From NCBI GenBank assembly GCA_020050835.1, contig JAGVKB010000053.1, positions 62,001 to 126,000 on the forward strand: a stretch of 64,000 nt of DNA. Direction: 5' to 3'. Positions 62,709-62,808 of this stretch are shown here, piece after piece. Position numbers and translations under genes: made by a program. The stretch comes from Candidatus Obscuribacterales bacterium (GTDB lineage: Bacteria > Cyanobacteriota > Vampirovibrionia > Obscuribacterales > Obscuribacteraceae). Each line of letters starts with the position of its first letter. Within the stretch, counting starts at the first letter, position 1. The notes beneath the pieces were generated by a model. The model was not told the origin of the DNA and did not search any database. It worked only from the letters and a program-made list of their open reading frames with translations.

Positions 62709-62808
62709 TGGAGGGAATGTGAGGGACTCGAACCCCCAAGTAACGACTTCGGCCGCCACTTCGACGGTTTTGCAGACCGTGCGCCACAACCAGTGACGAA
62801 ACATCCCC
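62709..62808 (-). tRNA. Selenocysteine-type tRNA with cysteine anticodon GCA (100 nt including encoded CCA)
   Basis: The minus strand folds into an unusual class II tRNA. It has an 8-bp acceptor GGGGAUGU/ACAUUCCC, a two-nt linker UU, and a 6-bp D stem CGUCAC/GUGGCG with loop UGGUU. The anticodon stem ACGGU/ACCGU has loop CUGCAAA (anticodon GCA). The variable arm has 10 bp, AAGUGGCGGC/GUCGUUACUU with CGAA loop. The T stem is GGGGG/CCCUC with loop UUCGAGU; discriminator U, then CCA. The 8+5 acceptor-T helix, 6-bp D stem and long variable arm are hallmarks of bacterial tRNA-Sec, whereas GCA and U73 are cysteine identity elements. An ordinary tRNA-Cys has 7+5 bp, a 4-bp D stem and a short variable loop. 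It may be charged by CysRS, or by SerRS/SelA. Confidence 0.85.

Follow-up and report, generated by a model that had tools for sequence, protein, structure and literature searches.

The closest described counterparts of a selenocysteine-shaped tRNA with a cysteine anticodon are the selC* tRNA-Cys molecules (Mukai et al. 2017, cited here after the review PMC7609411), which possess a tRNA-Sec-like body, U73, and a GCA (or UCA) anticodon; their branch is of the 8/4 form and bears an A51a bulge, and certain deltaproteobacteria have selB* and cysS* genes linked to them. The principle of a sense-codon tRNA-Sec is attributed to Mukai et al. 2016 in the portion of PMC10778597 that cites it. Bacterial cysteine identity comprises U73, G2-C71, C3-G70, and GCA, with U73 and G34C35A36 among the main determinants; in E. 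coli tRNA-Sec G73 is the strongest serylation determinant, and three pairs at the E. coli acceptor-T junction decide between SelB and EF-Tu (PMC9976931).

The gene described here lies in a 64,000-nucleotide stretch of DNA (the window) from a Candidatus Obscuribacterales bacterium and was called by ARAGORN as tRNA-Cys(GCA) on the minus strand (Table 1). A sequence-only reading of this DNA had claimed the shape of tRNA-Sec for it, and the covariance models bear this out: the Rfam tRNA-Sec model RF01852 matches exactly the same positions at 54.9 bits, with a gathering score (curated cut-off) of 47 bits, and the general tRNA model reaches 30.5 bits only. The proposed arms (8-bp acceptor, 2-nt linker, 6-bp D stem with 5-nt loop, 10-bp variable arm, 5-bp T stem) together with GCA, U73, and CCA coincide with the predicted minimum-energy structure, which is identical to the centroid structure and is a tRNA-Sec-type cloverleaf. 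The fold energy is -42.3 kcal/mol (z = -3.27; 0 of 200 shuffles equally stable) and every one of the 34 stem pairs is of the Watson-Crick or G-U type, so that chance is excluded as the source of the cloverleaf and the arms carry no sign of sequence error. The acceptor and T stems add up to a 13-bp branch, as in the bacterial tRNA-Sec architecture.

Table 1. The window tRNA gene, its parts, and the adjoining open reading frames (positions within the window).
Feature	Position	Strand	Basis
tRNA gene, 100 nt including encoded CCA, tRNA-Sec architecture (8/5), anticodon GCA, U73	62709..62808	-	ARAGORN, Rfam RF01852, fold
Acceptor stem 5' strand GGGGATGT, 8 bp with 62713-62720 ACATTCCC, one G-U	62801..62808	-	fold
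Linker UU, 2 nt	62799..62800	-	fold
D arm, 6-bp stem CGTCAC/GTGGCG, 5-nt loop TGGTT (family tRNA-Sec: TGGT, 4 nt)	62782..62798	-	fold
Anticodon arm ACGGT-CTGCAAA-ACCGT, 5-bp stem	62764..62780	-	fold
Anticodon GCA, reads UGC/UGU	62771..62773	-	ARAGORN, position 36
Variable region, 26 nt: CG + 10-bp stem AAGTGGCGGC/GTCGTTACTT, CGAA loop	62738..62763	-	fold
T arm, 5-bp stem GGGGG/CCCTC, loop TTCGAGT, without A51a bulge	62721..62737	-	fold
Acceptor stem 3' strand ACATTCCC	62713..62720	-	fold
Discriminator base U73	62712..62712	-	fold
Encoded CCA	62709..62711	-	sequence
Downstream neighbour, SAM methyltransferase-like ORF from ATG at 62643, not a sel gene	61636..62643	-	ORF list, sequence
Upstream neighbour, fatty acid desaturase-like ORF, runs past window end, not a sel gene	63105..64000	-	ORF list, sequence

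The tRNA-Sec genes of the same family served as a reference set (28 genes; L001, L214-L242), in which a position was considered conserved when shared by at least 26 of the 28, and nine such positions differ in the window tRNA. Position 34 is G in place of U, and position 73, which is G in 28 of 28, is U. The 8th branch pair, a G-G mismatch in 26 of 28, is U-A and the 10th has gone from U-A to G-U, with both sides changed in each case, and single bases differ in the D stem (G-U to A-U), the acceptor (G-C to G-U), and the T-loop. The D loop exceeds that of the family by one base, and the variable arm has a 10-bp stem different from the family's and fully paired. The cysteine set U73, G34C35A36, and G2-C71 is present, with position 3-70 being G-C where bacterial tRNA-Cys identity has C-G, and GCA with U73 stands in place of the UCA (or recoding) anticodon and G73 of a functional tRNA-Sec. 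The family's own tRNA-Sec lacks the E. coli acceptor-T junction pairs, and therefore the carrier factor of the window tRNA is not readable from its sequence.

The host assembly (7.01 Mb, 154 contigs, 95.7% complete, 4.1% contaminated) contains all five of the genes that the sequence-only reading had named as worth seeking: selA (one copy, 555.9 bits), selB (342.1 bits), and selD (371.7 bits), the last two with one copy above cut-off each, an ordinary tRNA-Cys with GCA and U73 (L029), and an ordinary selC with UCA and G73 (L001:1501-1596, 70.2 bits). The gene for CysRS, cysS, is likewise present in one copy above cut-off (537.7 bits), and neither it nor selB has a specialised second copy, the sub-cut-off matches of the selB search being presumably other translation GTPases. 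The tRNA-Sec and the three tRNA-Ser genes of the genome that were read all possess G73. The host thus has the full selenocysteine gene set, and since an ordinary tRNA-Cys and CysRS accompany it, the window tRNA is a third, additional gene; its interpretation as a replacement of the normal selC or of the normal tRNA-Cys was rejected, as both are intact in the genome. When a formate dehydrogenase interrupted by an in-frame stop was looked for, only a sub-cut-off match free of stops came up, so that the use of UGA as selenocysteine is a prediction from the gene set. Beside the ordinary selC lies a partial RpoB whose best matches are the solved RNA polymerases 8h3v, 8gzg, and 8syi, which we take to be cyanobacterial, in keeping with a probable place in Obscuribacterales/Vampirovibrionia of the Cyanobacteriota.

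The methyltransferase-like ORF starts 66 nt downstream of the window tRNA, and the longer version that begins at a TTG and extends to 62829 simply runs across the tRNA. Within the window and the adjoining stretch to C17:152000, tblastn gave no match to SelA, SelB, SelD, or CysS, and no promoter-like site was found on the strand of the tRNA within the scanned upstream region. Desaturase homologues in relatives have no such tRNA adjoining, and the neighbouring genes are not conserved. A phage or plasmid origin was rejected, with no similar DNA found in the phage collection or the plasmid collection. A misbinned contig is disfavoured because its GC content and tetranucleotide composition agree with those of the remaining genome and because the tRNA is nearest to the family selC; the assembly is, however, 4% contaminated.

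Global alignment placed the UCA selC genes of the family closest among the compared sequences (72% for L215, 72% for L001, and 71% for L238), with GGGGATG and the anticodon stem common to the window tRNA and the nearest of them, and the best GCA tRNAs aligned at lower score. In an unrooted tree of 84 tRNAs the nearest rows to the window tRNA are again family selC genes, and a branch with 97/100 support unites it with the selC genes of the family and of E. coli and with the G73 genes of Burkholderiales, apart from the U73 group; on this selC side it sits weakly at the base (52/55). When constrained to the family selC it gave a slightly better likelihood (p-AU 0.53), and when constrained to all GCA tRNAs the result was 4.2 log units worse and not rejected (p-AU 0.32). 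With fewer than 100 columns and a long end branch for the window tRNA, these data make an independent origin from the local selC the likelier reading, compared with common descent with the GCA tRNAs, and not a proven one; the move to cysteine identity was probably separate from that of the known selC* group.

A strong tRNA-Sec match was found in 39 of 50 family genomes (24 genera), and a second match only in the host genome, in a survey with strict filters from which weak copies could escape. In 382 genomes of the class the pattern that combines a GCA anticodon and a long variable region returned the window gene and one non-tRNA only; according to ARAGORN, neither the relative G016 (L251) nor the Melainabacteria contig L087 has a tRNA at its pattern match. 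The same kind of pattern gave at least 119 stretches in GTDB genomes, and among the matches listed many are GCA tRNAs with tRNA-Sec-like bodies, from Thermodesulfobacteriota, Nitrospirota, Bacillota, Actinomycetota, Chloroflexota, Planctomycetota, Acidobacteriota, and Burkholderiales.

For these loci the branch and the discriminator base were parsed, and each stretch (up to 8 kb) was searched with the host SelA, SelB, SelD, and CysS. Among the matches listed, 0 of 45 U73 copies are near selA and 13 of 45 are within 8 kb of a selB-like gene, and of the 13 G73 copies listed 9 lie near selA, 8 of which have selB nearby as well, and 2 have selB alone nearby; the two remaining G73 loci, L071 and L150, may be one base out of register and hence U73. 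These counts are approximate because of 14 further loci parsed with A or C at the discriminator, several of them one-base-shifted or not tRNAs, and as many listed rows are related, the counts do not represent independent events. Among the matches listed the split is nevertheless clear, G73 with selA marking selenocysteine identity and U73 in the absence of selA marking cysteine identity. The window gene is on the U73 side, and no sel gene adjoins it.

Several observations concern these other loci in their own right. The GCA/G73 genes that adjoin selA and/or selB belong to Burkholderiales (Rubrivivax, Piscinibacter, Azohydromonas, and relatives; L057, L086, L090, L093, L115, L118, L119, L132, L134, L162, and L166), and this arrangement suggests a sense-codon (UGC/UGU) selenocysteine system. 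GCA/U73 genes that have a selB-like gene, and no selA, within 8 kb were seen in L061, L075, L078, and L120 and in deltaproteobacterial loci (e.g., L065, L099, and L101), and such loci include Nitrospirota 8/5 forms without the A51a bulge. In L130, L136, and L156 (GCA/U73; two Nitrospirota and one unplaced bacterium) the variable regions measure 31-34 nt, compared with 23-26 nt in most. The viral contigs L177-L211 (e.g., L184, L192, and L196) carry GCA tRNAs with a 7-bp acceptor, a long variable arm, and Ser/Leu-like bodies, mostly with U73, which are possible class II cysteine tRNAs of phages; one identical viral tRNA, beginning GCTGTCTTG, occurs in L183, L186, L187, L188, L194, L207, and L211.

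Taken together, the window tRNA is explained, with a probability of about two in three, as a duplicated selC turned into a minor cysteine tRNA, and it is best read as belonging to a kind already described, the rare selC* tRNA-Cys known from other bacteria, and not as a new use of selenocysteine. In this course a selC copy would have been duplicated and would have exchanged its anticodon (UCA to GCA) and its discriminator (G73 to U73), with the cloverleaf kept. The single ordinary CysRS would then charge it via U73 and GCA, the loss of G73 would take it off the SerRS-SelA route, and it would read UGC/UGU as cysteine. As there is no second SelB, the carrier may be either EF-Tu or the shared SelB; the changed 8th and 10th branch pairs sit where the E. 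coli SelB/EF-Tu discrimination lies. Against the cysteine reading speak G3-C70, the long variable arm of the SerRS type, the singleton occurrence in the class, and the lack of a promoter-like site in the scanned region. Of the two origins offered by the sequence-only reading, the derivation of a cysteine tRNA from selC agrees with the family UCA selC being nearest and with the listed U73 GCA genes never standing beside selA, its charging being a prediction; the re-assignment of selC to cysteine codons finds no support as stated, with the UCA/G73 selC intact and U73 replacing G73.

It is unlikely that the gene was acquired from, or is related to, the known selC* lineages and has its cysteine inserted by the selenocysteine elongation factor. 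The identity set GCA with U73 is that of selC* tRNA-Cys, several listed U73 GCA genes of other phyla adjoin a selB-like gene, and the tree test tolerates its grouping with all GCA tRNAs; however, the genome has only the single selB and cysS, the A51a bulge is absent, the tRNA is unlinked to sel genes, its nearest sequence is the family's own selC, and the 97/100 branch separates it from the U73 group, although the long branch makes this placement unsure.

Somewhat less probable still is a second, sense-codon tRNA-Sec, which would be charged with serine by SerRS, converted by SelA, and brought by SelB, as selenocysteine, to UGC/UGU codons followed by a SECIS element. Its D arm has retained the 6 bp read by SelA, its long variable arm is of the SerRS type, the genome has selA, selB, and selD, GCA/G73 tRNA-Sec genes adjoin selA/selB in Burkholderiales, and selenocysteine at the cysteine codon UGU has been reported in Aeromonas salmonicida (PMC10778597). 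Selenocysteine at cysteine codons is disfavoured, though, because G73, present in all 28 examined family tRNA-Sec genes and replaced here by U73, is the main serylation determinant; in addition, the neighbourhood searched holds no sel gene, the normal UCA selC is retained, and the D loop is longer by one base.

That the gene plays no part in translation, being a selC copy that is silent or in decay or else a regulatory RNA, is doubtful to the same degree: the occurrence in one genome only (50 family and 382 class genomes scanned), the absence of a promoter-like site from its strand in the upstream region scanned, and the redundancy with the ordinary tRNA-Cys would fit it, but all the stem pairs are intact despite about 28% sequence difference from selC, the 10-bp variable arm was rewritten yet is fully paired, the identity changed at 34 and 73 in a coordinated manner, and CCA is encoded. 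Dual charging, by which the SerRS-type variable arm, the SelA-readable D arm, and the 8/5 branch would allow selenocysteine at chosen UGC/UGU codons, or cysteine via SelB, as a second sense-codon channel beside the intact UCA system, is very improbable.

Read as a cysteine tRNA derived from selC, the window tRNA compares with the known systems as follows. With canonical bacterial selC it shares the 8/5 branch, the 6-bp D stem, the long variable arm, and the RF01852 match, while selC has UCA and G73. The putative sense-codon tRNA-Sec genes of Burkholderiales (GCA/G73) have the same tRNA-Sec body, 8/5 branch, and GCA, but their G73 and selA/selB linkage mark selenocysteine identity. The 8/5 genes found in this analysis in Nitrospirota, Chloroflexota, and Actinomycetota have the 8/5 branch, GCA, and U73 in common with it, whereas they form another sequence group in the tree and some adjoin a selB-like gene. 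As far as the selC* tRNA-Cys is described in PMC7609411, the likeness covers the tRNA-Sec-like body, the long acceptor and variable arm, GCA, and U73; the window tRNA differs in its 8/5 branch without a bulge (8/4 with A51a in selC*) and, compared with the linked selC* subgroups of that account, in being unlinked, with single ordinary selB and cysS genes, neither of them near. It differs from selC* also in being closest to the selC of its own lineage. In a cyanobacterial-looking lineage it appears to represent an independent tRNA-Sec identity switch at the two places where one would expect it, the anticodon and the discriminator, with the original selC kept, and it lends itself to a clean test of the tRNAs that EF-Tu and SelB will take; the relation of the discriminator to selA among the matches listed across genomes suggests a simple rule for telling a true sense-codon tRNA-Sec from a selenocysteine-shaped cysteine tRNA.
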